Shown: in pieces, positions 15,507 to 52,875 of the stretch
How the letters are laid out: the number at the start of each line of letters is the position of its first letter
Numbering within the stretch: position 1 is the first letter of the stretch
Source: Faecalibacterium prausnitzii
Lineage (GTDB): Bacteria; Bacillota; Clostridia; Oscillospirales; Ruminococcaceae
Assembly (NCBI RefSeq): GCF_003324185.1
Contig: NZ_PXUP01000003.1
Location: 186,001 to 250,000, forward strand
DNA length: 64,000 bases
Direction of reading: 5' to 3'
The notes under the pieces: model-generated
Told to the model about the DNA's origin: nothing
The model's input: only the letters and a program-made list of their open reading frames with translations
Database searches by the model: none
Translations under genes and position numbers: made by a program

Positions 15507-16700
15507 ATGTATTCGTTGTTTCGAGATCTGGCGATCATAATCCTGAGCGCGAAATTCTTCGGACTGGTGGCGCGTAAGTGCAAGGCTCCGCAGGTGGTGG
15601 GTGAGATCATCGCCGGCCTGCTCATCGGCCCCTGTTTGCTGAACCTGGTGCAGATCAGCGACTCCATCTCCATCTTTGCAGAGATCGGCGTTGTGATGCT
15701 CATGTTCACCACCGGCCTCGGCACCAACCTGAAAGAGCTGATCAAGGCAGGCCCCATCGCCACCCTGATCGCCACCGTTGGTGTGGCTGTGCCTTTGGTG
15801 GGCGGCACCTTATTATATGGTGCGTTCTACGGCTTTGCCGCAGTGGGCAGCCCGGAGTTCTACCGTGCGCTGTTCATCGGCACTATCATGACCGCCACCA
15901 GCGTGTCCATCACGGTGGCTACCCTGCAGGAGCTTGGACACCTGAAGAGCTTTCTGGGCACCACCATCGTCAGCGCCGCTGTCATTGATGATGTCATCGG
16001 CATCGTGGTGCTCACCTGCGTGCTGGGTGCCAGCAGCGGTACCGGTACGGGTCTGGGCAAGGTGCTGTTCAACACCCTGCTGTTCTTTGCCACCGCATTG
16101 GGCGTGGGTCTTGTAGTGCACTACGCCATGAAGTGGCTGGATCAGCGCAATCCCCATACCCAGCGCATCACCATCGTGAGTATGGCGTTCTGTTTTGCTA
16201 TGGCTTACATTGCAGAGGAATACTTCGGCATCGCCGATATCACCGGCGCTTACATTGCAGGCATCGTGCTGTGCACCATGGATGACGCACCCTATGTGGA
16301 GCGCCGGGTGGATATCAGCAACTACGTTATCTTTGCGCCGATCTTCTTTGCCTCCATCGGTCTCAAGACCGATATCAGCGGCCTGACTCCGGAGATCTTA
16401 CTGTTCTGCGTCTGCTTCGTGGTGGTGGCACTGATCACCAAGATCATCGGCTGCGGTCTGGCGGCAAAGATCTGCCGCTTCAACTGGGACGATTCCCTGA
16501 AGGTTGGCGTTGGTATGATGACCCGCGGCGAGGTGGCACTGATCGTGGCACAAAAGGGCTTAGCCATCGGCGTGGTAGACCCGGTCTACTTCACAGCTGT
16601 GATCCTGCTGATCGTGGTGTCCAGCGTGGCCACCCCGCTGGCACTCAAGGCCATGTTCACCAAGCGCCCGCCCGTGCCGCATCCCAGTCAGGCAAAATAA
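15507..16700 (+). CDS. Kef-type cation:proton antiporter (CPA2 family)
   Basis: 397 residues, nearly all membrane spanning (about 12 segments). The sequence shows CPA2/Na_H_exchanger features: APQVVGEIIAGLLIGP near residue 28, a glycine-rich region GVVMLMFTTGLGTNLKEL near 70, and TSVSITVATLQELG and VIDDVIGIVVL near 130-160, the latter containing the DD pair expected to carry the ion. It should exchange Na+ or K+ for H+ at the cytoplasmic membrane. It lacks the C-terminal TrkA-N domain of true KefB/C. AAAGGAGG precedes the ATG. It is transcribed alone and ends in a strong terminator. Confidence 0.88.
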   Translation: MYSLFRDLAIIILSAKFFGLVARKCKAPQVVGEIIAGLLIGPCLLNLVQISDSISIFAEIGVVMLMFTTGLGTNLKELIKAGPIATLIATVGVAVPLVGGTLLYGAFYGFAAVGSPEFYRALFIGTIMTATSVSITVATLQELGHLKSFLGTTIVSAAVIDDVIGIVVLTCVLGASSGTGTGLGKVLFNTLLFFATALGVGLVVHYAMKWLDQRNPHTQRITIVSMAFCFAMAYIAEEYFGIADITGAYIAGIVLCTMDDAPYVERRVDISNYVIFAPIFFASIGLKTDISGLTPEILLFCVCFVVVALITKIIGCGLAAKICRFNWDDSLKVGVGMMTRGEVALIVAQKGLAIGVVDPVYFTAVILLIVVSSVATPLALKAMFTKRPPVPHPSQAK

Positions 16701-16715
16701 ATCAGATTTGTATTT

Positions 16716-16756
16716 GGGGTTCAGAAACGTCTGCGGGCGTTTCGGAACCCCTTTTT
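16716..16756 (+). terminator. Terminator after the antiporter gene
   Basis: GGGGTTC.GAAACG pairs with CGTTTC.GAACCCC and is followed by TTTTT. Confidence 0.9.
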
Positions 16757-16771
16757 CATCTGAGTATATGC

Positions 16772-40569: not shown

Positions 40570-40645
40570 GCGGCCGTAGCTCATCTGGTAGAGCGCCACC
40601 TTGCCAAGGTGGAGGTAGCGAGTTCGAGCCTCGTCGGCCGCTCCA
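40570..40645 (+). tRNA. tRNA-Gly (GCC), copy 2
   Basis: Base-for-base identical to the copy at 40089, including CCA. It lies 166 bases after tRNA-Phe with no evident promoter of its own, and is followed at once by a terminator. Confidence 0.97.
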
Positions 40646-40650
40646 ATACG

Positions 40651-40693
40651 AAGCCATCGTTGATGCAGAGATGCAAAAACGATGGCTTTTTTG
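40651..40693 (+). terminator. Terminator of the tRNA cluster
   Basis: AAGCCATCGTT pairs with AACGATGGCTT followed by TTTTTTG. Confidence 0.9.
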
Positions 40694-40783
40694 TTTCGTG
40701 CGGCAATGGTCGGGAATGTCCGCAGCGTCGCGCTTCCGTAGGAAGCGGCGCTGCATCTGCCGTTTTCCATCACGACCCCACCT

Positions 40784-40827
40784 GTGAAAAAGGAGTAGCG
40801 GAACGCCCGCAGGCGTTCCGCTACTCC
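40784..40827 (+). repeat. GTGAAAA-hairpin repeat, copy A
   Basis: GTGAAAA, A, arm GGAGTAGCGGAACGC, loop CCGCAG, then the perfect complement of the arm. Preceded by ACGACCCC..CCT and followed by GAAATCTAAAATA. The gap 40694-41047 otherwise holds GC-rich short hairpins and no supported gene. Read on the minus strand it ends in TTTTTCAC and lies downstream of the AEC transporter gene. Confidence 0.85.
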
Positions 40828-41047
40828 GAAATCTAAAATACTATTTCTGCTGGCTATGCCCAGCAACGACGACGACCGCCGCCAGTGGCGGAAACAGGGA
40901 GGAGTTGTTGGGGCAGCGGCCAGCAAGACGCGCGTGCCGTCCAAGGCACGATGCGGATGCTGGGTGCCGCAACCCGTAAGACGCGGAAGGCATTTTAAAT
41001 CGTCCTTCTTACAATATAAATATACTGCTACTGGGCGGCGGCTCTGC

Positions 41048-41974
41048 TTACATCACCATGGTGATGATCAGCGCACACAGCGGCAGGGTGACGATGCTGA
41101 GCAGGGTAGTCAGCACCACGCTTCCGGCGGCAAAGTGCTCATCGTGGCCGAACTGCACCGCAAATACCGAGGTGATGGCGGCGGCCGGGCAGCATTCCAG
41201 CAGCGTGACCACCTGTGCGGCAGTGCCGTGGAAGCCCAGCACCCCGAACAGCGCCAGCGTAGCCACCGGGATCAGCAGCATACGCACGGAGGCAAGCTTC
41301 CAGATGTGCTTGTCGGTTACGATGCTGCGCACGTCACCGGCGGCAATCAGCATACCGGTAATGAGCATGGACAGCGGGGTGTTCACTCCGGCCAACAGTT
41401 CCAGTGGCTGAGTGATCAGGGTGGGAAGCGGGATCTGCAGCAGATAGATGCCCAGCCCCACCACAATGGCATACAGTACCGGGGTGCGCACCAGACTGCG
41501 GGCAACCTCTTTTACACTGGAACCGCCGCTGACAAGGCCATAACCCAGCGTCCACAGCAGAATGTTGAACACGGTAACGTAGGCACTGGCATACAAAAGA
41601 CCTTCGGAGCCGAACAGCGCCGAAATAAGCGGGAAGCCCATGTATGCTGCGTTGGAAAAAATGCAGGCGAACCGGAAAATGGGCATCCTGCTGCCAGTCT
41701 TGCGTGCCGTGAGCAGCAGAGTGATCACAGTGCCCAGCAGCACGGACAGGACGCTCATGCCGAAAGCCGCCAGCAGATTGTGCAAGATCTGGGCGCTGAA
41801 TTCCATGCGGTAAGAGTTTACCACCATGGCCGGCACAATGATGTACACCAGCAGATTGGAAAGCGCCTGCTTGTTTTCCAGCTTGAGCACGCCGGTTTTG
41901 ACCGCCACCATGCCTGTGCCGATCAGCAGGAACAAGACCGCGACCTGCTGCACGGTGATGAGAGCCAGTTCCAT
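41048..41974 (-). CDS. AEC-family transporter (auxin efflux carrier-like)
   Basis: 308 residues with about ten membrane segments in two repeats. N-terminal ALITVQQVAVLFLLIGTGMVA and the middle FACIFSNAAYMGFPLISALFG (with the conserved NxxxMGxP-type motif near 107-113) are typical of the AEC family; bacterial members export or import organic acids such as malate or malonate. Substrate unknown. ATG at 41974 follows GAGGAGGAG; the longer frame was trimmed. It is not in an operon. Confidence 0.88.
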   Translation of the reverse strand: MELALITVQQVAVLFLLIGTGMVAVKTGVLKLENKQALSNLLVYIIVPAMVVNSYRMEFSAQILHNLLAAFGMSVLSVLLGTVITLLLTARKTGSRMPIFRFACIFSNAAYMGFPLISALFGSEGLLYASAYVTVFNILLWTLGYGLVSGGSSVKEVARSLVRTPVLYAIVVGLGIYLLQIPLPTLITQPLELLAGVNTPLSMLITGMLIAAGDVRSIVTDKHIWKLASVRMLLIPVATLALFGVLGFHGTAAQVVTLLECCPAAAITSVFAVQFGHDEHFAAGSVVLTTLLSIVTLPLCALIITMVM

Positions 41975-42094
41975 AAAATTCTCCTCCTCTAGGCCATAAC
42001 GCATATACCACGAAAGATACAACACAGGTATAGTACAAAACCCTGCGGATAGCAAGGCGGAACGCAGGGCTTTGCAAGATTTTGCAGTTAAAGC

Positions 42095-43084
42095 TTACAA
42101 AATGACATTTTTGATCAGCAGGGAAATGCTGCCGTCATCGGCGTGCAGGAACTCTACCTCCGATTCGGCGTTCAACAGTTCGGTGGGGATCTTTACCTCA
42201 ATGCCGTTGGCGGTGCGCAGGCTGCGGCTCTCCATGCGGCGGATGCGGGCGGGGGCCACAGTCACCGGCTGGGCGGCGCTGTCAATGACATCGCTCTTTT
42301 CTACATAATCGTCAAAGGGCACGGCGGCAAGAGGATATTCCTCCTCCAATTGCTGGCGCACCTGCTGGATGGACACCTGATTGTCGTTGTCGGCAGCCTG
42401 ATTGGCAATCATCATGGCCACCTGTGCCTCCACATGGGGCGTTTCAGCGTAGTTCTCCTGCACAGCCTGCACGGCAGCTTCCTGAATGGCCTGCAGCTTT
42501 TTCTTTTCCGGCTGGGCGGTGGTGTACTGGAACACCACGGTGGAAAGGTAAAACTCCTTGTGGCCGTCAATATCATACTTCTTTTCCAGCAGCCGCATGG
42601 AGTAATCGGTCAGGTCTACCAGTGCGCCCTCCTCCACCTTGCCGCTCTGGGTAGGCAGGCAGGCGCGCTGCTGGATGATGGAGTTCACCGGTGCGCCCTC
42701 CACAGTCTCCGTATAGTGGGTGTAGCCGTTTTTGTAGTTCAGCTTCAGGATGCCCAGCCACGGCGCACCGTCCCGGGTAAAATCCACCACGGCAAGGTCT
42801 GCCCCGGGGATGGTGGTGTGGGCGTGCATATAGTCGAACAGCACCCCGGCAATGCGGCAGGAAAGATCCACAAAGTCCTGATTGTGTTCCAGCTCATTTT
42901 TAAAGGCTGAGTCCGGCAGCGGGCGGCACTGGCGGATGTCGTCGCTGGCCAGCAGCTTTTCAATGTGGTTTTGCAGGTAGGCGTTTTTTTCGGCGGTCAG
43001 TTCCATGGGCCCGCCGCTGAGCACCGGCGCATCCATGGTGGTATCCAGAACGTGCAGAATGGCCTGATGAATGATGATCTCCAT
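42095..43084 (-). CDS. Nucleoid-associated protein (NdpA/YejK family)
   Basis: 329 residues. The family is recognised from the N-terminal IIIHQAILHVLD, the central FTRDGAPWLGILKLNYKNGYTHY near 105 and the pattern QQRACLPTQSGKVEEGALVDL near 140. E. coli YejK associates with the nucleoid; the molecular role is unclear. It is divergent from recD2 with a 156-base gap. Confidence 0.85.
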   Translation of the reverse strand: MEIIIHQAILHVLDTTMDAPVLSGGPMELTAEKNAYLQNHIEKLLASDDIRQCRPLPDSAFKNELEHNQDFVDLSCRIAGVLFDYMHAHTTIPGADLAVVDFTRDGAPWLGILKLNYKNGYTHYTETVEGAPVNSIIQQRACLPTQSGKVEEGALVDLTDYSMRLLEKKYDIDGHKEFYLSTVVFQYTTAQPEKKKLQAIQEAAVQAVQENYAETPHVEAQVAMMIANQAADNDNQVSIQQVRQQLEEEYPLAAVPFDDYVEKSDVIDSAAQPVTVAPARIRRMESRSLRTANGIEVKIPTELLNAESEVEFLHADDGSISLLIKNVIL

Positions 43085-43180
43085 TGTTGCTCCTCATTTC
43101 GTGACGTAGTGTTTGCGCCCAGTATAGCACAACCGCCGGAAAAAGGCGAGAGCCGCCCGGGGATTTTGCGGATTCTACAA

Positions 43181-43209
43181 TTTACAAATCCCGCCAAAAG
43201 GGCTATACT
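43181..43209 (+). promoter_or_regulatory. Promoter of recD2
   Basis: TTTACA (43181-43186), a 17-base spacer, TATACT (43204-43209). The predicted start near 43216 lies after the ATG at 43214, which argues for the GTG at 43241 as start codon. Confidence 0.7.
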
Positions 43210-43240
43210 TATAATGTCTGTGCAAAAGGAGGTGGAGCTG

Positions 43241-45475
43241 GTGGACGAGCAGCAGCTGGAACAGATCGAAGGCGTCGTGGAGGATATCATCTACGAGAAC
43301 GAGGATAACGGCTATGTGGTGTTCGAGATCTCCGGCGGCGGGGTGCTCACGGTGGTCTGCGGCATCGTAGGCGAGCTGCACGCAGGCGAAAGCGTCATCT
43401 GCCGCGGCAGGTACGAAAACCACGCCACCTATGGCCGCCAGTTCCACGCGCAGGAATGCGAGACCGATATGCCCAAGGATCTGGAAGCGGTGTATGCCTT
43501 TCTGGCCAGCCGTTCCCTGCCGTATATCGGCGCAAGAACTGCGGATAAGATCATTGATATGTTCGGGGCTGAAGCGCTGGAGGTCATCGCCAACGACCCC
43601 GCCCGGCTGACCAAGATCCCCGGCATCTCGCCGGATAAGGCCGACCGCATCCAGCAGGAGTTCAAGCGGATGTTCGGAATGCGGGAGCTCATCGCCTATC
43701 TGGCGCAGTTTGAGATCAGTCCCCGCAAGGCTATGGAGGTGTTCAAAGCCTTTGGCGTGGGGGCGATGCAGGCCATTGCGTCAAACCCCTATCTGCTGTG
43801 CGGGGAGCCGCTGCAGCTGGACTTCCGCCACGCGGACAGCATCGCCCAGTATTACCACATGGAAGGGGACTGCGCCCAGCGGCTGGAAGCTGCCCTGCTG
43901 CGCACTTTGCGCCACAATGCGGGCAACGGCCACACCTGTCTGCCCCGGGCACAGCTGCTGGCAACTGCCTCCAACTTTATCCACCAGCCGCCGGAAAAGC
44001 TGGCGCGTGCGCTGGATCACTGCATCGAAACGGAAGAACTGTGTGTAAAAATGTTCGATGCCGTGCCCTATATCTACCTGCCAGATCTGCTGGCTGCAGA
44101 GCAGGACATTGCCGACCGGCTGAACCTGCTGGCAAAGCGCGGCAAGAACACGGCCCGGGATCTGGATAAAAACATCCAGATCTTGGAGCTGACACAGGGC
44201 TTTGCCTACGCCCCCCTGCAAAGGGAAGCCATCCGCAAGGCTATGACTGAGAACTGCCTTGTGCTCACCGGCGGCCCCGGCACGGGCAAGACCACCACGG
44301 TCAACGCCATTTTGCAGCTGCTGGAAAATCAGGCCGAGCGGGTAGCCCTGTGCGCGCCCACCGGCCGCGCTGCCAAGCGGCTCAGCGAGCTGACCGGCCG
44401 CAAGGCCAGCACCATCCACCGCCTGCTGGAGGTGGACTATACCGGCGGCGTGGTCAGTTTTATCCATAACGACAAAAACCTGCTCAAGTGTGACGTGGTC
44501 ATTCTGGACGAGATGAGCATGGTGGACGTCAAGCTGTTTCAGGCGCTCATTGCAGCGCTGCGCTACACCTGCCGTATTATTATGGTAGGCGATGCCGACC
44601 AGCTGCCCAGCGTGGGCGCGGGCAACATCCTCAGCGAGGTCATCCGCTCCGGCTGCGTGCCCACCGTCTGCCTGAACGAGATCTTCCGGCAGGCAAAGCG
44701 CAGCCTCATCGTGGAAAACGCCCATCACATCATCTCCGGCGAGCCGCTGCAAAAGGGCAGCAAGACCGATGACTTCTTCTTTTTGGAGTCCGATGGCGAG
44801 GCCGCCCAGCGTCTGGTGTGCGACCTTGTCACCACCCGGCTGCCCCGGAGCTACGGCTTTGACCCCATCCGGGATATTCAGGTGCTGTGCCCCACAAAGC
44901 TTGGCCCCACCGGCACACAGGCACTGAACGTGGAACTGCAAAACCTGCTCAACCCGCCCCAGAAGGGCAAGCCCCAGCTGCAAAGCGCCGCCCGGGTGTT
45001 CCGGGTAGGGGACAAGGTGATGCAGGTGCGCAACAACTACGAGATCGTCTGGAACCGCATCGGCGGTGAGCAGGGCGTGGGTGCCTACAACGGCGATATC
45101 GGCATTGTGGAAAGCATCAACCTGCGGGAGCGCTCCATGGTGGTGCGCATGGACGACCGGCGGCTGCTCTACCCGGCGGAAAACCTGAACGAGCTGGAGA
45201 TCGCCTACGCCATCACGGTGCACAAAAGTCAGGGCAGCGAGTTCCCGGCGGTGATCCTGCCGGTGGCGCAGGTGCCGCCAAGGCTGTGCTACCGCAACCT
45301 GTTCTACACCGGCGTCACTCGCGCGCGCAAATTGTGCGTTGTGGCGGGCCGCAGGGACGTGGTGAACAGCATGATGAGCAACATCCGGCAGAACCTGCGT
45401 TACAGCGGTCTGTGCGCCCTGCTGCAGGCCGGACAGCCGCCGCAGCAGCTCGGTACAGAAGGGGAGAGCTCCTAA
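43241..45475 (+). CDS. recD2: RecD2-type ATP-dependent DNA helicase (SF1B)
   Basis: 744 residues from the GTG, which follows AAGGAGG by eight bases. The N-terminal region (to ~330) includes an OB-like part and helix-hairpin-helix repeats (ARTADKIIDMFGAEALEVI, LTKIPGISPDKADRI). The motor begins with Walker A GGPGTGKTTTVNAIL near 342, then APTGRAAKRLSEL, the DEMSMVD Walker B near 428 and ADQLPSVGAGNILSEV, and ends with AYAITVHKSQGSEFPAVILP and VTRARKLCVVAG. It acts in repair as a 5'-3' helicase without RecBC. An upstream open frame overlaps ndpA and was rejected. Confidence 0.95.
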   Translation: MDEQQLEQIEGVVEDIIYENEDNGYVVFEISGGGVLTVVCGIVGELHAGESVICRGRYENHATYGRQFHAQECETDMPKDLEAVYAFLASRSLPYIGARTADKIIDMFGAEALEVIANDPARLTKIPGISPDKADRIQQEFKRMFGMRELIAYLAQFEISPRKAMEVFKAFGVGAMQAIASNPYLLCGEPLQLDFRHADSIAQYYHMEGDCAQRLEAALLRTLRHNAGNGHTCLPRAQLLATASNFIHQPPEKLARALDHCIETEELCVKMFDAVPYIYLPDLLAAEQDIADRLNLLAKRGKNTARDLDKNIQILELTQGFAYAPLQREAIRKAMTENCLVLTGGPGTGKTTTVNAILQLLENQAERVALCAPTGRAAKRLSELTGRKASTIHRLLEVDYTGGVVSFIHNDKNLLKCDVVILDEMSMVDVKLFQALIAALRYTCRIIMVGDADQLPSVGAGNILSEVIRSGCVPTVCLNEIFRQAKRSLIVENAHHIISGEPLQKGSKTDDFFFLESDGEAAQRLVCDLVTTRLPRSYGFDPIRDIQVLCPTKLGPTGTQALNVELQNLLNPPQKGKPQLQSAARVFRVGDKVMQVRNNYEIVWNRIGGEQGVGAYNGDIGIVESINLRERSMVVRMDDRRLLYPAENLNELEIAYAITVHKSQGSEFPAVILPVAQVPPRLCYRNLFYTGVTRARKLCVVAGRRDVVNSMMSNIRQNLRYSGLCALLQAGQPPQQLGTEGESS

Positions 45476-45614
45476 TAAAACCGCGCAGAACAGCGGCAAA
45501 GCTTGTATACTTTTTGCCGCAACTATGTTATACTAAAGCAGTCTTTGTTTTTTGCCCGCAGCTGCGGGCGTTACATACATGATAGAGGAACGCAGAGAAA
45601 GGATTCAGGCAATT

Positions 45615-46640
45615 ATGGCACAGAATGATATTGGCATCGACCTTGGTACTACTACCATCATCATCGCGCAGGAGGGCAAGGGCGTGGTGCTCAACCAGCC
45701 CAGCGTTGTGGCAATGGATACCCGCAAGAACACCGTGCTGGAAGCCGGCGACAAGGCACTGGCTATGGTGGGACGCACGCCCAACTATATCTCCGCCATC
45801 TTCCCGCTGAAGGACGGCGTCATCAGCGACCACACCATGACCCGGGAGCTGATCTGCCGCTTTGTCAAGCAGGTGTACAGCTCCCACATGGTCAAGCCCC
45901 GGGTGGCAGTGTGCGTGCCCGCCGCTATTACCGGCATTGAGAGCGATGCCGTGGTAGAGGCTGTAGTGGCAGCCGGTGCCCGTCAGGTGTACCTGATCGA
46001 CGAGCCTATCGCCGCAGCCCTCGGCTCCGGCATCGACATCACCCTGCCGGACGGCCGCATGATCATTGATATCGGCGGCGGCACCACGGATATCGCGGTG
46101 CTGAGCCTTGGCGGCAAGGTCAAGGCCACCAGTGTGCGCGTGGCCGGCAACCACTACGATGAGGAGATCCTCAAGCACGTGCGCAACAAATACAGCATTG
46201 CCATTGGCCAGCGCACCGCCGAGGAACTGAAAAAGCACGTTGCCTGCTGCCCCCAAAAGACCGATTTCCACGAGAGCATGGAGATCAAGGGCCGCAGCCT
46301 GCTCACCGGTCTGCCGGTGCGCGTGACCGTTTCCACCGACGATCTGTACGAGCCGGTGATGATGCTCAGCGAGCAGATCGGCACCGCAGCCCATCAGGTG
46401 CTGGAAAAAACCCCGCCGGAGCTGGCAGGCGATATCTACCGCAACGGCGTCATGTTGACCGGCGGCGGTGCCCAGCTGCACGGCCTGACCGAATATCTGA
46501 GCCAGGAACTGAAGGTGGAGGTCACCGTCTCGCCGGATCCCGTAAACTGCGTTGCACTGGGCACGGCACAGAGCCTTTCCATCGGTGATAAGCTGGAAAC
46601 CGGCTTTACGGATGCTACTCCGCGCATCGGCCGCCGCTAA
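45615..46640 (+). CDS. mreB: Rod shape-determining protein, MreB/Mbl family
   Basis: 341 residues of the actin fold. Phosphate loops IGIDLGTTTIIIA near residue 5 and MIIDIGGGTTDIAVLSLGG near 155, plus VMLTGGGAQLHGL near 280, mark MreB. It forms membrane-bound filaments that direct lateral wall synthesis. mreC and mreD, usual partners, are not adjacent, so this is likely a stand-alone Mbl-like paralogue. ATG at 45615 has GAAAGGA upstream; two upstream in-frame ATGs are possible but lack good sites. Preceded by a TATACT -10 box at 45529. Confidence 0.93.
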   Translation: MAQNDIGIDLGTTTIIIAQEGKGVVLNQPSVVAMDTRKNTVLEAGDKALAMVGRTPNYISAIFPLKDGVISDHTMTRELICRFVKQVYSSHMVKPRVAVCVPAAITGIESDAVVEAVVAAGARQVYLIDEPIAAALGSGIDITLPDGRMIIDIGGGTTDIAVLSLGGKVKATSVRVAGNHYDEEILKHVRNKYSIAIGQRTAEELKKHVACCPQKTDFHESMEIKGRSLLTGLPVRVTVSTDDLYEPVMMLSEQIGTAAHQVLEKTPPELAGDIYRNGVMLTGGGAQLHGLTEYLSQELKVEVTVSPDPVNCVALGTAQSLSIGDKLETGFTDATPRIGRR

Positions 46641-46702
46641 GCTTGGTTCGTTTTGTCCATGTCATATCACAAAGCAGCAAAAATAAAATTTGTTAATTTT
46701 TG

Positions 46703-46731
46703 TTGAAATGAATGGCAAAATACGGTATACT
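46703..46731 (+). promoter_or_regulatory. Promoter of the decarboxylase subunit operon
   Basis: TTGAAA (46703-46708), a 17-base spacer, TATACT (46726-46731), about 70 bases before the gamma subunit start. Confidence 0.7.
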
Positions 46732-46800
46732 ATACCCAAATTGATTTTCTGCTAACGATGTTGTATCGCTTGCAGTATCCAACAAACAGGAGGAAAAACC

Positions 46801-47157
46801 ATGGACTTAGGTTTCGATGTGGTCGTTACCATTACTGGTATCGTGCTGGTGTTCCTGATCCTCGTGCTGCTGATGGCTATCATCACGCTGGAGGGCAAGA
46901 TCTTCGACTCGATGAATGCCAAGAAGAAGGCCGCTAAGACTGCTGCGCAGGCACCCGCCGCAAAGCCCGCTGCCGCTCCGGTACAGCAGGCTGCGCCCGC
47001 TCCTCAGGTAGAGGAGGGCATCCCCGGTGACGTGGTGGCCGCCATTATGGCTGCTATCCATGCAATGGGCAACGGCAAGTACACCCTTAAGGCAGTGCGT
47101 CGTGGCAAAAATGGCTGGGGCAAGGCCGGCGTGAACGACACCACGGCCCCGTTTTAA
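46801..47157 (+). CDS. OadG-like gamma/delta subunit of a sodium-pumping decarboxylase
   Basis: 118 residues. One membrane segment (about 8-31: VTITGIVLVFLILVLLMAII), an Ala/Pro/Gln-rich linker (about 44-72) and a soluble C-terminus (DVVAAIMAAIHAMG..YTLKAVRR). It matches small OadG/MmdD-like subunits that anchor the cytoplasmic carboxyltransferase to the membrane beta subunit. The linker recalls biotin carrier proteins, but there is no biotinylation motif (AMKM). It begins the two-gene operon with the beta subunit 15 bases downstream. Confidence 0.85.
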   Translation: MDLGFDVVVTITGIVLVFLILVLLMAIITLEGKIFDSMNAKKKAAKTAAQAPAAKPAAAPVQQAAPAPQVEEGIPGDVVAAIMAAIHAMGNGKYTLKAVRRGKNGWGKAGVNDTTAPF

Positions 47158-47172
47158 CACAGGAGGAAGAGC

Positions 47173-48381
47173 ATGACACAGTTTATTGATACTCTGGTCG
47201 GTATTTTCCAAAGTTCCGGCTTTGCACAGTTTGGCCAGCCCGGCGGCTGGCTGTACGCCGTGATGATCTGCGTGGGCTGCTTTTTGCTGTACCTCGCCAT
47301 CGTCAAGGAGTTCGAACCCCTGATCCTGCTACCCATGGCCTTTGGCATGATCCTTGCCAACCTCCCCGGCAGCGGCATCATCCACATGCAGTACTTCGTC
47401 GGTGACGGTCTGGAGCACCCCATGTGGGTCGAGATCCTGAACAACGGCGGTCTGGCCGATATGCTCTACATGGGCGTTAAGCTGGGCATCTACCCGCCGC
47501 TGATCTTCCTCGGCATCGGCACCATGACCGACTTTGCACCCCTGATCTCCAACCCCAAGAGCCTGCTGCTGGGCGCTGCCGCACAGTTCGGTATCTTCGG
47601 TACTTACATGGGCGCTCGTCTGCTGGCCGCTACCGGTCTGGTGGACTTCACCCAGAAGCAGTCCGCTGCCATCTCCATCATCGGCGGTGCCGACGGCCCC
47701 ACCGCTATCTTCGTTACCTCCCGTCTGGCACCTGAGCTGCTGGGCAGCATCGCTGTGGCAGCGTACAGCTACATGGCACTGGTGCCCGTTATCCAGCCGC
47801 CCATCATGAAGGCATTGACCACCTCCAAGGAGCGCTCTGTGGTCATGAAGCAGCTGCGCACCGTCTCCAAGACCGAGAGGATCATCTTCCCCATCATGGT
47901 CGCTATCATTGTTTCCCTCATCGTGCCGGATGCCGCCGTTCTGGTCGGTATGCTGATGCTGGGCAACCTGATGAAGGAGTGCGGCGTTGTGGATCGTATC
48001 CAGAAGACCGCCGGTAATGAGCTGATGAACATCATCACCATCTTCCTGGCTCTGTCTGTTGGCTGCACCACCAGTGCAAACACCTTCCTGAACACCCGCA
48101 CCCTGTTCATCATCGTGCTGGGTCTGATCGCCTTCTCCTTCGGCACCGCAGCCGGTGTGCTGTGCGGCAAGGTTATGTACAAGCTGACCGGCGGTCAGGT
48201 GAACCCCCTGATCGGTTCCGCCGGCGTTTCCGCCGTGCCTATGGCCGCTCGTGTCTCCCAGAAGGTCGGCCAGAGTGAGAACCCCTCCAACTTCCTGCTG
48301 ATGCACGCCATGGGCCCCAACGTGGCCGGCGTTATCGGTTCTGCCGTTGCTGCTGGTATCCTGATCAACATCTTCGGCTAA
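47173..48381 (+). CDS. Sodium-translocating decarboxylase beta subunit (OadB/GcdB/MmdB)
   Basis: 402 residues with about eleven membrane segments. The signature SIIGGADGPTAIFVTSRLAP near residue 172 carries the Asp used in Na+ and proton movement, and GCTTSANTFLNTRTLFIIVLG near 297 the conserved Asn/Ser region. It decarboxylates carboxybiotin and pumps 2 Na+. The alpha subunit and biotin carrier needed for activity are not in the window, so the acid (oxaloacetate, methylmalonyl-CoA or glutaconyl-CoA) cannot be named; in a butyrate producer glutaconyl-CoA is plausible. A hairpin terminator follows. Confidence 0.95.
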   Translation: MTQFIDTLVGIFQSSGFAQFGQPGGWLYAVMICVGCFLLYLAIVKEFEPLILLPMAFGMILANLPGSGIIHMQYFVGDGLEHPMWVEILNNGGLADMLYMGVKLGIYPPLIFLGIGTMTDFAPLISNPKSLLLGAAAQFGIFGTYMGARLLAATGLVDFTQKQSAAISIIGGADGPTAIFVTSRLAPELLGSIAVAAYSYMALVPVIQPPIMKALTTSKERSVVMKQLRTVSKTERIIFPIMVAIIVSLIVPDAAVLVGMLMLGNLMKECGVVDRIQKTAGNELMNIITIFLALSVGCTTSANTFLNTRTLFIIVLGLIAFSFGTAAGVLCGKVMYKLTGGQVNPLIGSAGVSAVPMAARVSQKVGQSENPSNFLLMHAMGPNVAGVIGSAVAAGILINIFG

Positions 48382-48404
48382 GAAAAACCTAAAGCACTAC
48401 CCCA

Positions 48405-48440
48405 AGAGCCATCGCACAAGTTTGTGCGGTGGCTCTTTTT
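48405..48440 (+). terminator. Terminator after the beta subunit gene
   Basis: AGAGCCATCGCACA pairs with TGTGCGGTGGCTCT (one G-T), followed by TTTTG. Confidence 0.88.
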
Positions 48441-48510
48441 GTGCAGGACGATTTCAAATGGCCTCCGCTGCGCTTTGGCCATATTCAGCGGAATTATGAT
48501 TTATTATTTC

Positions 48511-48554
48511 GGGATAACGGAGCGTCTGCGGACGCTCCGTTATCCCATTTTCAC
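48511..48554 (-). repeat. GTGAAAA-hairpin repeat, copy B
   Basis: On the minus strand: GTGAAAA, T, arm GGGATAACGGAGCGT, loop CCGCAG, then the perfect complement, then GAAATAATAAA. On the plus strand the stem is followed by ATTTTCAC, about 100 bases after the decarboxylase terminator. Confidence 0.85.
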
Positions 48555-48605
48555 GGGAGAGGACGTAAGAGGTAACAGCAGCCGTTTCCAGTTACGACCC
48601 CTTCT

Positions 48606-48649
48606 GTGAAAAAGAGGTTCTGAAACGCACGCAGGCGTTTCAGAACCTC
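48606..48649 (+). repeat. GTGAAAA-hairpin repeat, copy C
   Basis: GTGAAAA, A, arm GAGGTTCTGAAACGC, loop ACGCAG, perfect complement, then AAATATTAAAATA. Upstream GTTACGACCCCTTCT closely matches copy A. Confidence 0.85.
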
Positions 48650-48809
48650 AAATATTAAAATATACTTTCCTTGAACAATGGCCAGAGCGGCAGCGGAGGC
48701 CATTCAAAATTGTGTTAGCATTAGTTTCTTCCTGTTTGTGTTTGGCTGTTGCTTGTGCTATCATAGAGAAAACAGGGCGCAAAACGCCCCAAAACAGGAG
48801 GGAGCCGTT

Positions 48810-49502
48810 ATGGAAAAAATCAAGCTTGAGATCGCAGGCATCCCGGCTGTCCTGTACGGCAAGCGCAGCCGCCGGGTCTATCTCTACGTCCACGGCAAAA
48901 ACGGCAGCGCAGCCGAGGCTGCCCGCTTTGCCCGCACAGCTTGCCCGGCAGGCTGGCAGGTGCTGGCTGTCGATCTGCCGGAGCACGGCACCCGGAAAAA
49001 CAGCCCGGAAAAGCTGGTGCCGTGGGTGGTCACCCGGGAACTGCAAACGGTCTATGCCCGGATGCAGCCGGTGTGGAAACATATTCGGGTGTATGGGGTC
49101 AGCATCGGTGCGTGGTTTGCCATGCAGGCGTTGCAGACGCAAACGCCGGAAAAGGCACTGCTTGTCTCCCCGGTGGTGGATATGGAAAAGCTGATCCTTG
49201 ACCTGATGCAGCAGGCAGGGGTAACGGAGGAGCAGCTGCGCGCGGCAGGGGAGATCCCCACAGACTTTGGGAAGACGCTTTCGTGGCCGTATCTGTGCTG
49301 GGTGCGGGAGCACCCGCTGCACTGGAAAGTGCCTACACAGGTGCTCTATGCTGATACAGACCCCCTTACCGGGCACACCGCCATGGAGCAGTTCCGGCAG
49401 CAGACCGGGGCGCACCTGACCATTTTGGAGGGCGGGGAGCACTGGTTCCATACCGAGACCCAGCTGGCCGCTCTGCAAAGCTGGGAAAACTGTCATTTAT
49501 AA
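48810..49502 (+). CDS. Alpha/beta hydrolase
   Basis: 230 residues. The fold is shown by VYLYVHGKNGSAAEA near 24 (oxyanion region), the nucleophile elbow YGVSIGAW near residue 95 with Ser, an acid candidate in LYADTDPLTGH near 180 and the His of GGEHWFH near 212. No signal peptide. Substrate unknown; small esterase or acyl hydrolase is likely. ATG at 48810 follows AGGAGGGAG; the frame extends to 48678 through the repeat and was trimmed. A short hairpin GGGCG-CAAAA-CGCCC lies in its leader near 48776. It is convergent with cstA. Confidence 0.82.
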   Translation: MEKIKLEIAGIPAVLYGKRSRRVYLYVHGKNGSAAEAARFARTACPAGWQVLAVDLPEHGTRKNSPEKLVPWVVTRELQTVYARMQPVWKHIRVYGVSIGAWFAMQALQTQTPEKALLVSPVVDMEKLILDLMQQAGVTEEQLRAAGEIPTDFGKTLSWPYLCWVREHPLHWKVPTQVLYADTDPLTGHTAMEQFRQQTGAHLTILEGGEHWFHTETQLAALQSWENCHL

Positions 49503-49528
49503 TAAGCAGTTTCTCTTTTCCTCAGTCT

Positions 49529-49572
49529 GTGAAAATGTAAGCCCGGAAAATCCGCGGATTTTCCGGGCTTAC
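49529..49572 (+). repeat. GTGAAAA-hairpin repeat, copy D
   Basis: GTGAAAA, T, arm GTAAGCCCGGAAAAT, loop CCGCGG, perfect complement, then ATATAAAATA. The stem extends one more base pair. Read on the minus strand it ends ATTTTCAC and lies just beyond the cstA terminator. Confidence 0.85.
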
Positions 49573-49593
49573 ATATAAAATACGCTTCCACAA

Positions 49594-49636
49594 CAAAACG
49601 CCGCTGACGGCTTTGTGCATCGTCAGCGGCGTTTTG
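49594..49636 (-). terminator. Terminator after cstA
   Basis: CAAAACGCCGCTGACG and CGTCAGCGGCGTTTTG form a perfect 16-base stem; on the minus strand it ends in TTTTGTTG. Confidence 0.88.
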
Positions 49637-49667
49637 TTTATTGAAAACAGGATTGTGAATGGCAGAA

Positions 49668-51395
49668 TCAGACGTTTGCTTCGCTGTTGTGCTCAGCCTT
49701 CTTGTAAGCGGAGAAGGAGTGGAACACAATGTTCAGGCCCAGCACAATCAGCAGCACGGCAAGGATCAGCTGCAGGCCGTTTGCGATAAACACAGCGCCC
49801 CAGGTGGTCTCACCGGCAGGGATGGTAACAGAAGCGGCGGTGCTGATGGCCTTGACCATAGCGATCAGGCGCTGCACCAGTGCGGTAAAGGTAACGCACA
49901 GCATGATGACCAGAGGGGGGAACAGCATCTTGTTGCTGCGGCCGGTCACCTTCAGGAACACGCACAGGGTAGCCAGCACCAGTGCGCTCAGCAGCTGGTT
50001 GGCAGAACCGAACAGCGGCCAGATGTTGGCGTAGCCGATCTTGGTCAGGATAAAGCCGAACACCAGCGTGATGAAGGTGGAGAAGTACACGTTGCAGAAC
50101 AGCTTGCGCCAGCCCTCAGCGTGCTCCATGTCGTCCACGCTGAACAGCTCCTGGAAGCTCATGCGGCCAATGCGGGCCACGGCATCCAGACTGGTCAGTG
50201 CCAGTGCGGAAACACACATGGTCATGAACACGGTAGCGGCGTAAGCGGGCACGCCGAACATCTCAAAGAAACCGGCAACGCCGCGGCTGAAGATCTGGAA
50301 CGGAGTACCGGCAGCAGGGGTGCCGTCGGCAGCTGCGGCAGCACCGGCAACACACAGAGCCAGAACAGCCAACAGGCTTTCAAGGATCATGGCACCGTAG
50401 CCGACCTTCAGCATATCCTTCTCGTTTTCAACGGTCTTGGAGGAAGTACCGGAGGAAACAAGGCTGTGGAAGCCGGAAACTGCACCGCAAGCCACGGTGA
50501 CGAACAGGATGGGGAACATGGTGCCCAGCTTTTCGTTGGTAAAGCCAGTGAACACGGGCAGGTTCATGGTGGGGTGTGCAACCAGCAGGCCAACCACAGC
50601 GCCCACGATCATGGCCACGAACATAAAGGTGGTCATGTGGTCACGGGGCTGCTTGAGCAGCCACATGGGCAGCACAGCAGCAAAGAAGATATACACAAAG
50701 GTGATGTAGCTCCAAGCGGCCTTACCCAGGATCAGGGGCAGGTTTGCGCCGATGACAAAGGACAGCACGATGAACACGATGCTGATAACGCTTTCCTTCC
50801 AGCCGGAGAAGCTGAACTTTTTCTGCAGCAGGCCAAAGATAACGGCGAACACCATGAACATGATGGACACCATACCGGCAGCGCCGTTGGTCTTGGCAGC
50901 TTCAACCATTGCGCCGTCTGCGCCGAAGGCATTGAAGGTGCCGGCAACCATGTCCGCAAAAGCGGCAATCACGATGCCGCAGAACAGCCAGCAGAACAGC
51001 AGGAACAGCTTGCGGCCGGTCTTGCCGATGTACTTTTCAATCAGCATACCCATGCTCTTGCCGTCGTTCTTAACGGAAGCATACAAAGCGCCAAAGTCGG
51101 TAACGGCGCCAAAGAAGATGCCGCCCAGCAGCACCCACAGCAGCACCGGCAGCCAGCCGAAAGCAGCGGCCTGAATGGCACCGGTAACAGGGCCTGCACC
51201 GGCAATGGAGCTGAACTGGTGGGCAAACACCGTCCAGCCGTTGGTGGGCACATAGTCCCGGCCATCTTCGTGGACGACTGCCGGGGTCTTGGCAGCAGGG
51301 TCGATGCCCCATTTGTTAGCCAGCCAGCGGCCGTAAAGCACATAAGCGCCAAACAGGCACACCGCTGCGATCAATACGATGACCAGCGTATTCAT
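49668..51395 (-). CDS. cstA: CstA family carbon starvation protein (peptide/pyruvate transporter)
   Basis: 575 residues with about sixteen membrane segments. Conserved CstA stretches: FAHQFSSIAGAGPVTGA near residue 57, GGIFFGAVTDFGALYASVKN near 91, and VACGAVSGFHSLVSSGTSSK near 300. E. coli CstA and BtsT transport peptides or pyruvate under starvation. The gene is single and its message begins with a T-box leader, so its expression answers to an uncharged tRNA, which supports a role in peptide or amino acid supply (inference). It is shorter than E. coli CstA (~700). Confidence 0.95.
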   Translation of the reverse strand: MNTLVIVLIAAVCLFGAYVLYGRWLANKWGIDPAAKTPAVVHEDGRDYVPTNGWTVFAHQFSSIAGAGPVTGAIQAAAFGWLPVLLWVLLGGIFFGAVTDFGALYASVKNDGKSMGMLIEKYIGKTGRKLFLLFCWLFCGIVIAAFADMVAGTFNAFGADGAMVEAAKTNGAAGMVSIMFMVFAVIFGLLQKKFSFSGWKESVISIVFIVLSFVIGANLPLILGKAAWSYITFVYIFFAAVLPMWLLKQPRDHMTTFMFVAMIVGAVVGLLVAHPTMNLPVFTGFTNEKLGTMFPILFVTVACGAVSGFHSLVSSGTSSKTVENEKDMLKVGYGAMILESLLAVLALCVAGAAAAADGTPAAGTPFQIFSRGVAGFFEMFGVPAYAATVFMTMCVSALALTSLDAVARIGRMSFQELFSVDDMEHAEGWRKLFCNVYFSTFITLVFGFILTKIGYANIWPLFGSANQLLSALVLATLCVFLKVTGRSNKMLFPPLVIMLCVTFTALVQRLIAMVKAISTAASVTIPAGETTWGAVFIANGLQLILAVLLIVLGLNIVFHSFSAYKKAEHNSEANV

Positions 51396-51479
51396 AGTTT
51401 TCTACCTCTTTCCTTTTTTCACTCCGCAACAGGTTCGGAACGATAGGCTACCGTCCGGCAAAGTGCTTCCCCGGAGCGT

Positions 51480-51821
51480 AAAAAACCTTCGTCCTCAGCA
51501 CATGACCGGGCTTTCCGGCCACACTCCGAAGACGAAGGCTTCTGCTCCCGCCTGCCAGGGCAGGGGCATTACTCCGCGGTACCACTTCGCTTGCTGTGTT
51601 AAAACAGCCACTCTCCCACGCATGGTACACTGACCATGCTGCCCGATAACGTGGGCTGGACGGCACCATGCTACTTGGGGGCGCAAAACCCGGTTCACAC
51701 AGGCTGCTCGCAGGCGAGGGTCCTCTGCTCCTGACTGCCGCTTTTTCACCCGAGAAGCGGCTCGCTGAAAGAGGGTGATGCAGAAGATCATGTCCTGTTC
51801 CTTGCATTTGCTGAATGATTG
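51480..51821 (-). ncRNA. T-box leader upstream of cstA
   Basis: The core T-box AAGTGGTACCGCGG lies at 51574-51587 (minus strand). It is followed by a terminator with arms CCTTCGTC and GACGAAGG and a T-run (51480-51541). The antiterminator can form by pairing CGAAG before the T-box with CTTCG in the terminator's 5' arm. The upstream ~200 bases contain long stems, including CTTCTGC/GCAGAGG. TGGT in the T-box predicts a tRNA with discriminator A, which excludes Gly, Asp and others with a different base. I could not assign the specifier codon. Confidence 0.9.
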
Positions 51822-51827
51822 TGTCCT

Positions 51828-51856
51828 ACTTTATTCCCGTTTTCATCAATTGTCAA
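51828..51856 (-). promoter_or_regulatory. Promoter of the T-box-cstA transcript
   Basis: On the minus strand TTGACA (51851-51856), a 17-base spacer, TAAAGT (51828-51833). The start should be near 51821. The AT-rich sequence from 51857 to 51990 shows nothing else. Confidence 0.75.
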
Positions 51857-51990
51857 TATTTCTGTAACAAGTTCAGAGGATACGCCAATTCAAGCCATTT
51901 TCTGGGAATAATTTTTAGATGATTTTCTTTCATGTGTGAAGAGAATAAAACTGAATACGCTCTTAATTGAAAACCATTCACCCACAGGTC

Positions 51991-52019
51991 TTGACTTTCG
52001 CACTTTGAAGTGCTAAAGT
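51991..52019 (+). promoter_or_regulatory. Promoter of the YerC-type gene with a palindrome in the spacer
   Basis: TTGACT (51991-51996), a 17-base spacer, TAAAGT (52014-52019). The spacer contains GCACTT-TG-AAGTGC (52000-52013), a two-fold symmetric site well placed for repressor binding. Confidence 0.65.
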
Positions 52020-52098
52020 AATAGCGTGCAGAATATTCCGCGCGGCAGCACTGTCGGCTTTGCCTGCTGCCGCCGCTGTTATAATAAGGAGAAAAACA

Positions 52099-52407
52099 AT
52101 GGCTGAAAAAAATTCCAGAAGAAACGAGACGACGGATGCACTGTTTGACGCTATCCTCAGTCTGGAGAGCCGGGAAGAGTGCTACGCCTTTTTTGAGGAT
52201 CTATGCACTGTAAAGGAGATCTCGGATATGGCGCAGCGCCTGCAGGCCGCAAAGCTGCTGCTGGACGGTGCCACCTATGAGCAGATCGTCAAGGCGGTGG
52301 AGATCAGCACTGCCACCATCAGCCGCATCAACCGCTGCATCCAGTACGGCTCCGGCGGCTACCGCGACACCATTGAGAAGGTGCGCGCGCAGGCTGAAAA
52401 GCAGTAA
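52099..52407 (+). CDS. TrpR-like regulator of the YerC/YecD family
   Basis: 102 residues, all helical. The TrpR-fold HTH is seen in CYAFFEDLCTVKEISDMAQRL, TYEQIVKAVEISTATISRINR and a Gly-rich end CIQYGSGGYRD. The family is widespread in Firmicutes; the ligand, if any, and targets are unknown. ATG at 52099 has AAGGAG upstream; the earlier ATG is in the leader. A symmetric site in its promoter suggests self-control. Confidence 0.92.
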   Translation: MAEKNSRRNETTDALFDAILSLESREECYAFFEDLCTVKEISDMAQRLQAAKLLLDGATYEQIVKAVEISTATISRINRCIQYGSGGYRDTIEKVRAQAEKQ

Positions 52408-52466
52408 CAGCCGCACCCGCCGTAGCATAGGATAGGGCACACGACCGGAAAGGAAGGTTTTGCCCT

Positions 52467-52793
52467 ATGATGATCGATACCCCCTGTGCCCGTTCTCAGT
52501 GCCCGGAGATGCCCAAGGTCAGCTTGGATCAGGCTGTTGTGGACCTGATGGAAAGCATTGCCTTGCAGGAAACGGCGCTCAGCCACATTTTGTGTGCCGA
52601 AAGCCGGAAGATGCAGAAGGCCATGGATCTGGATGGCCTGGATCTTTGCAAGCTGCTGGAGGTGAACGACTCCGCCACCAATATGGTGCACGCCGTCGCA
52701 AACCTTGAACTGGTGCTCAAGGATAAGCTGGAGTTCGTTTCCAACAACCTGTATGTCCCGGGGGACAGCGGCTGCCCATCACCTGCGCAGTAA
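52467..52793 (+). CDS. Small helical protein of unknown function
   Basis: 108 residues. The central part (VVDLMESIALQETALSHILCAESRKMQKAM split here: LMESIALQETALSHIL then AESRKMQKAM, about 28-55) resembles a short clostridial family with the pattern IA.EE..L.HI.NAE..K.Q, seen in proteins of spore or surface context as far as I recall. No signal peptide. Two Cys near the N-terminus and two later. AGGAAGG precedes the ATG. It sits 60 bases after the YerC-type gene and is probably co-transcribed. Function unassigned. Confidence 0.7.
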   Translation: MMIDTPCARSQCPEMPKVSLDQAVVDLMESIALQETALSHILCAESRKMQKAMDLDGLDLCKLLEVNDSATNMVHAVANLELVLKDKLEFVSNNLYVPGDSGCPSPAQ

Positions 52794-52831
52794 TGTTTTT
52801 GCGTGGGACGATCTTTACTGCAATCTAACCT

Positions 52832-52875
52832 GTGAAAATGCAATGTCGGGCAGCCCACAGGCTGCCCGACATTGC
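52832..52875 (+). repeat. GTGAAAA-hairpin repeat, copy E
   Basis: GTGAAAA, T, arm GCAATGTCGGGCAGC, loop CCACAG, then the perfect complement. It lies between the small helical protein and a conventional terminator. Confidence 0.85.

Follow-up and report, generated by a model that had tools for sequence, protein, structure and literature searches.

The EFAR elements of Enterococcus faecalis are modular, extend over about 170 bp, carry two stem-loops and replace stem-loops at their target sites. REP and BIME elements are short extragenic palindromes present in many copies, carrying a GTAG or CGTC tag on one side and occurring in inverted pairs (PMC3733652, PMC12306157), and paired DNA-uptake words form Rho-independent terminators, a genome-wide repeat thereby doubling as a terminator hairpin (PMC2267715). 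Here we describe a repeat of Faecalibacterium prausnitzii that came to light in a 64,000-nucleotide stretch of contig NZ_PXUP01000003.1 (positions 186,001 to 250,000; assembly GCF_003324185.1), hereafter the window. An earlier reading of its sequence, the original prediction, had drawn attention to five intergenic hairpins, each preceded by GTGAAAA and a single A or T (GTGAAAAW). These hairpins are the centres, or centre remnants, of a longer interspersed repeat with a full unit of about 200 nt, which that reading had not seen.

On balance, comparison of the sequences favours a lineage-restricted, mobile and modular Faecalibacterium DNA repeat, the central hairpin of which is probably a portable intrinsic terminator. 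The repeats form a family with a structure kept by covariation, they fill some orthologous sites and leave others empty, and they are placed tightly, and in one orientation, behind stop codons. A mobile element with a terminator is proposed on the grounds of the terminator-like make-up of the hairpin, the stronger stems behind stop codons, the presence of ordinary T-tailed hairpins at element-free sites and the existence of stand-alone hairpins of similar type. If this is correct, many genes of an abundant human gut commensal owe their transcription ends to a transposable repeat, whose variable but paired stems would constitute a natural library for relating termination strength to stem sequence, stem length and U-run.

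The repeat shares with the REP and BIME elements a high copy number, an extragenic location, a tag on one side and a partial arrangement in inverted pairs. It differs from them in that the tag is GTGAAAAW rather than the tetranucleotide GTAG or CGTC, in its combination of variable arms, constant flanks and a U-run on one side, and in the lack of both a tracking RAYT and a Y1 transposase flanked by the repeat. The stem, short loop and U-run behind stop codons are shared with Rho-independent terminators; however, the uptake-word terminators have a constant word as their arms, whereas here the arms vary, the flanks are constant and the hairpin belongs to a mobile unit with a second helix. The likeness to EFAR is one of general description, and those elements belong to another genus. 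In short, the repeat behaves like a cross between a REP/BIME family and an intrinsic terminator.

Architecture of the repeat unit

Read along the strand carrying GTGAAAA, the unit consists of hairpin I, a spacer, GTGAAAAW, hairpin II, an AT-rich spacer, helix III and the end sequence AAATCGTC, as defined from an alignment of 24 copies and from comparison of one filled with one empty orthologous site. Hairpin I (GCAGCG...CGCTGC) is frequently missing; the spacer 3' of it ends near TTACGACCCCTCCC and is followed by GTGAAAAW, and the head reads GTGAAAAN in most copies. Hairpin II, with a 16-bp stem and a CGCA-type tetraloop, is followed by the AT-rich spacer (GAAATTATAAATAATT), by TTCCGCTGAA and by helix III, in which ATGSSC pairs with GSSCAT. 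Read on the opposite strand, hairpin II becomes a stem closed by the loop C(UGCG)G and followed by a short U-run.

The five hairpins lie where they were first reported, with the head, arms and loops given for them, and CTGTGAAAA precedes four of the five, as had been noted. The fixed geometry claimed for them, with 15-base arms and a 6-base loop, requires revision to a stem that is usually of 16 bp and a loop of 4 nt, because the outer C and G of the loop CCGCAG pair around CGCA. A true 15/6/15 arrangement is found only at 48606, where an A stands opposite a G, and the stem at 49529 is lengthened by flanking A-T pairs. More extensive counts were made for 96 strong copies (at least 80 bits) selected from 115 tabulated matches, all of at least 52 bits, which represent 100 of the 142 matches in genomes G023 and G006 and 15 of the 16 in G029. 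When scored with a finder that maximises pairing, 64 of these 96 have a 16-bp stem and 4-nt loop, 15 are of 15/4 and 10 of 17/4 geometry, seven are of other or unresolved form, and the loop is CGCA in 89.

Abundance and species distribution

The pattern GTGAAAAW-N12-16-CGCAG, with no complementarity required, occurs at 53 places in the genome and at none when read backwards. In 400-kb segments, hairpins are found at 17 of 63, 14 of 53 and 10 of 59 GTGAAAAW sites of three bearing species and at none of 42 in G026, and eight control motifs yielded zero to two each. The reversed pattern and the control motifs rule out a chance origin.

A covariance model of the element, R1, produced at least 143 matches in the source genome and from 79 to at least 150 in seven other Faecalibacterium species, with zero to three in the remaining 23 of the 31 Faecalibacterium genomes and no match in ten genomes of other genera (E limits of 0.01 and 0.001); with no more than 150 or 109 candidates scored in each genome, the high counts are lower bounds, and matches below about 40 bits may be ordinary terminators. 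On a tree of oadB from 20 genomes, two changes are needed to account for the eight bearers. Named matches to an exact 21-base pattern were to Faecalibacterium prausnitzii APC923/51-1 and Faecalibacterium sp. I4-1-79. No plasmid match was obtained, and spread by plasmids was rejected. Viral contigs gave no exact match to one 18-base pattern, and 16 short records from human faeces, unannotated and labelled "Bacteriophage sp.", match at 70–84% and are taken for bacterial fragments. Among the titles listed in literature searches on Faecalibacterium repeats and terminators, none describes this repeat; most subscription journals lie outside the coverage of the search, so its absence from the literature is unproven.

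Of 132 matches on the G023 chromosome, 84 are oriented away from position 1 and towards mid-chromosome, and parts of the middle contain few copies; the bias is with the replication fork if, as assumed here, the origin lies at position 1 and the terminus half-way.

Covariation of the stems

The contention that structure and geometry, rather than sequence, are kept is borne out by the alignment of 24 of 35 copies, the 11 omitted being mostly those without helix III or with a nested repeat; rows found by pattern were chosen without requiring pairing in stem II, again leaving out most copies without helix III. Changes on both sides were found in 13 of the 16 pairs of stem II and in four of the six pairs of helix III, and the covariation score of 0.404, against 0.146 in shuffles, was attained by none of 500 shuffles. 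Only further pair types, one of five covariation measures, did not rise above the shuffles (33 against 32.4). In both helices one Watson-Crick pair is exchanged for another, and wobble pairs are few. A set of 73 different stems contains 1151 pairs, of which 1128 are Watson-Crick; the 23 others include 13 G.A, largely a tandem mismatch of one subfamily, and eight G-T or A-C. A preference of the wobbles for one strand (six G-U against two A-C in RNA of the gene direction) was too small to be of use.

The scarcity of wobbles suits a process at the DNA level, or a fast correction of the arms, as well as it suits selection on RNA. This bears on a less probable alternative, namely that the repeat is selfish DNA which a nuclease or recombinase recognises in its single-stranded hairpin or cruciform form; its perfect arms would be kept by needs at the DNA level or by template switching during replication, and its placement at gene ends would reflect no more than tolerated or targeted insertion. 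The almost exclusively Watson-Crick stems, with their eight G-T or A-C cells, are in line with such an element.

Helix III could also be viewed as part of a structured regulatory RNA in the 3' untranslated region, for example a switch using alternative helices of III, the terminator being its last part only. Helix III covaries and is paired in 99.3% of cells of the alignment, outside which 11 of the 35 copies fall, and it can form a second, crossing helix, TCCGC/GCGGA; but the crossing helix shows no double change and is absent from 25 of 75 elements, on which grounds a strict H-type pseudoknot in III was rejected, and many copies lack III. Moreover, an Rfam scan of the window yielded five tRNAs only, and a search with relaxed threshold of window positions 40640–41060 and eight further loci gave nothing above the gathering score; Pistol reached 18.4 bits (E 0.44) against a required 34.5. 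A known RNA family was accordingly rejected, and we regard a regulatory RNA of this kind as highly improbable. In the same search, a sub-threshold match to the Mn2+ riboswitch (yybP-ykoY) was seen at L021:1772–1904, just downstream of an element copy, with 23.9 bits against a gathering score of 45.

Placement behind stop codons and terminator-like properties

The strong copies are intergenic, only three of 96 overlapping coding sequence as defined by our own open reading frame caller. They lie between tandem genes in 57 cases, between convergent genes in 28 and between divergent genes in 11; since the 697 gaps of at least 150 nt comprise 388 tandem, 112 convergent and 197 divergent ones, elements are rare between divergent genes. 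In 50 of the 96 the III-side gene is directed towards the element, and 37 of these 50 have their III end between -30 and +15 nt from the stop codon of that gene, where uniform placement would give 11.2 with a maximum of 23 in 2000 draws. The head end is near a stop codon in only seven of 63. In the 40 copies with the III end no more than 40 nt from a stop codon, the typical junction reads stop codon, GACGATTT, helix III', AT-rich linker, stem II' with a TGCG loop and TTTTCAC. Of the 132 G023 matches considered, 11 pairs lie close together, every one of them in head-to-head orientation; the 132 are drawn from 147 positions, and among the 15 low-scoring ones omitted, 891868 overlaps 891757 in the same orientation. 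A convergent gap in G006 (segment a, 41852/41970) is taken up by one head-to-head pair, each of the two stop codons having a III end beside it.

Read in the gene direction, hairpin II has a stem of 16 bp and the loop C(UGCG)G, which we take to be a tetraloop of the UNCG type, and is followed by (A/U)UUUUCAC. The stems behind stop codons are stronger than the others, with a median energy of -30.5 kcal/mol (n=39) against -26.8 kcal/mol (n=54; p 0.0013), and fewer of them are mismatched (3/39 against 14/54, p 0.03); for tails of five T the difference is borderline (14/39 against 9/54, p 0.051). Neither these stronger stems nor the abutment of stop codons by the III end only is explained by a selfish DNA element, which would, on the other hand, fit the half of the copies that serve no obvious gene end.

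A stable stem, and a position at gene ends in the right orientation (37 of 50), are features of intrinsic terminators, although 46 of the 96 copies lack such a gene. A terminator with a conserved tail, which the original prediction had named as a rival explanation, is now the better supported, if still putative, function. Under this proposal, a gene transcribed into the III end would give rise to an RNA comprising the stop codon, helix III', an AU-rich linker, the 16-bp stem with its C(UGCG)G loop and (A/U)UUUUCAC, and RNA polymerase would stop at the short U-run, while head-to-head pairs would end two converging transcripts. The stem would be selected for pairing strength and length, not for sequence, such that the arms could drift by compensated changes, and they may also be replaced wholesale via recombination with other copies, for which the conserved GTGAAAA and the AT-rich flanks would provide homology.

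Plain terminators of related form also occur. Two gene pairs that are element-free in G026, one of them also in G029, carry ordinary T-tailed hairpins there, and stand-alone T-tailed hairpins with UGCG, CGCG or CGCA loops are present outside elements in the G023 and G006 segments, none having been seen in those of G029 and G026. The earlier statement that ordinary terminators lack both the tail and the fixed geometry of the repeat holds only in part, given the stand-alone T-tailed hairpins with UGCG or CGCG loops in two related genomes. The stand-alone hairpins suggest exchange between elements and plain terminators. In segment b of G006, a bare terminator hairpin at 183018 has element arms around an inverted loop, CGCA in place of the TGCG expected for the gene direction, which gives the impression of a loop turned round between its arms.

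Several observations weigh against a terminator role. The near-absence of G-U pairs is unusual if selection acts on RNA alone. In the 46 copies mentioned above, the III-side gene points away, so that the hairpin would serve none of the neighbouring genes as a terminator. The U-run is short, with four to five T, and our own T-tail rule was passed by 18 of 40 copies behind stop codons. In the window, a terminator scan found no overall excess (15 against 13.1 in shuffles), and although its two longest terminator-like stems are copies 1 and 3, in the minus-strand reading, these are the only ones flagged of the five copies covered. Window copies 2 and 4 are separated from the gene by ordinary terminator hairpins, and copies 3 and 5 have no gene ending towards them on the III side. 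At site 275631, one of the two gene pairs with T-tailed hairpins in G026, an ordinary terminator next to the other gene is retained in G023 and G006 as well. Finally, the placement and stem-strength tests count orthologues twice and depend on genes from our own caller.

Turnover at orthologous sites

Of 50 G023 copies compared with the G006 segments, nine lack usable flanks there, and the other 41 mostly have flanks of 93–98% identity. An element of the same orientation is present at 23 of these 41 sites, one of opposite orientation only at three, and none at 15, where absence means that no match was tabulated; at 252744, G006 retains a bare hairpin with a T-tail. In G026 the same 50 copies were absent at 22 sites and without flanks at 28. 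When the 23 shared hairpins were sorted by eye, nine had the same stem (one differing at the foot), three showed one-sided changes, two a compensated pair swap, one an internal deletion and six a wholly different but equally paired stem, with two undecided. At two sites (175174/335046 and 177673/332527) helix III is identical and hairpin II differs, together with much upstream sequence, which points to exchange with other copies.

Single sites show similar changes. Among four close species, the site of the window copy at 52832 has undergone two compensated swaps, one change of a foot pair and changes in the loop, and helix III is retained there in G003 and lost in the window. The site at 40784 carries a full-length unit in G000 and G003, with a one-sided change in the latter, and is empty in G006 and G023. 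The arms of the G023 copy at 43000 persist in G029 at a flank identity of 81–85%. Near oadB, the head-to-head pair of G000 (window copies 2 and 3) is kept in G006 and G023, leaves only a remnant in G003 and is represented at the gene end by a pair with other arms in G010, G029 and G030. Given the filled and empty sites, the unit at 40784 and the patchy species distribution, gain or loss of elements must have occurred. The exchange of whole hairpins also speaks for selfish DNA, as do the two compensated swaps seen among four close species at 52832. The swapped hairpins at orthologous sites allow compensatory evolution of bacterial hairpins, base by base, to be tested against the copying of whole arms. 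A stem type with arm GCAATTCTGGAAAATC and head GTGAAAAG is identical at several sites in G006 and G023 and looks like a recent copying burst.

A bolder version of the terminator proposal would treat the units as cassettes, with GTGAAAAW on one side and the AT-rich spacer and helix III on the other serving as joints for exchanging whole stem-loops among about 150 loci and the stand-alone terminators; the hairpins would then form a shared, reshuffled pool maintained by a dedicated exchange rather than by ordinary mutation. This we consider unlikely.

Mobilisation by a transposase had also been raised at the outset, and here the filled and empty sites do reveal turnover or mobility, although no enzyme has been established. 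A REP/BIME family moved in trans by a RAYT or other Y1 (TnpA) transposase would agree with the high-copy extragenic palindromes and the head-to-head pairs, and Y1 transposases occur in six of the eight bearers (in G028 as a fragment only) against five of the 23 other Faecalibacterium genomes. However, no Y1_Tnp match was found in G006 or G030, single-contig bearers with at least 150 and 94 matches, respectively; an element hairpin was found within 1.5 kb of just one of ten Y1 loci (in G023) and near none of the other nine; and the GTAG tag is lacking. A Y1/RAYT transposase was consequently rejected as the sufficient, tracking enzyme, despite the commoner occurrence of Y1 genes in bearers, and we judge this origin very unlikely. 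As regards the hallmarks of a MITE, single copies show by eye no terminal inverted repeat and there is no target-site duplication of more than about 2 nt at 40784; clean empty sites are few.

Copies within the window and associated repeats

Copy 1 (40721–41004, plus strand, 87.0 bits) is a full unit with hairpin I at 40722–40754, GTGAAAAA at 40784–40791, stem-loop II at 40792–40827, helix III arms at 40856–40861 and about 40989–40993, and the end AAATCGTC at 40997–41004. Copy 2 (48439–48584, minus strand, 155.0 bits), with its head at 48554–48547, stem-loop II at 48546–48511 and helix III at 48482–48458, stands head to head with copy 3 (48576–48722, plus strand, 131.0 bits), which has GTGAAAAA at 48606–48613, stem-loop II at 48614–48649 and helix III at 48678–48703. 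Copies 4 (49529–49574, 55.4 bits) and 5 (52832–52875, 56.1 bits), both on the plus strand, consist of head and hairpin II, helix III being unrecognisable in the former and lost in the latter. A sixth, degenerate and truncated copy (16716–16759, minus strand, 45.5 bits), comprising hairpin II at 16716–16751 and a TTTTTCAT tail, was overlooked in the original prediction because its stem is imperfect; on the plus strand it lies 15 nt behind the stop codon TAA at 16698–16700, the frame having been judged by eye.

The helix III loop of some copies is occupied by a nested repeat (GGAGTTGTTGGGGCAGCGGCCAGCAAGAC...), including that of copy 1, where it extends over about 125 nt of the plus strand (40862–40987, with approximate ends), and others in G005, G012, G021 and further genomes. 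Its core occurs one to 11 times per genome in 11 of the 31 Faecalibacterium genomes, three of which are non-bearers of the main element. On the head side of many copies, for example in L003, L015 and at 177673 in segment a of G023, the element continues in a chain of hairpin I and a further abundant modular repeat (CTCAGTCGCTGCGCGACAGCTCCCCC...), which gives intergenic regions the appearance of a mosaic drawn from several repeat families.

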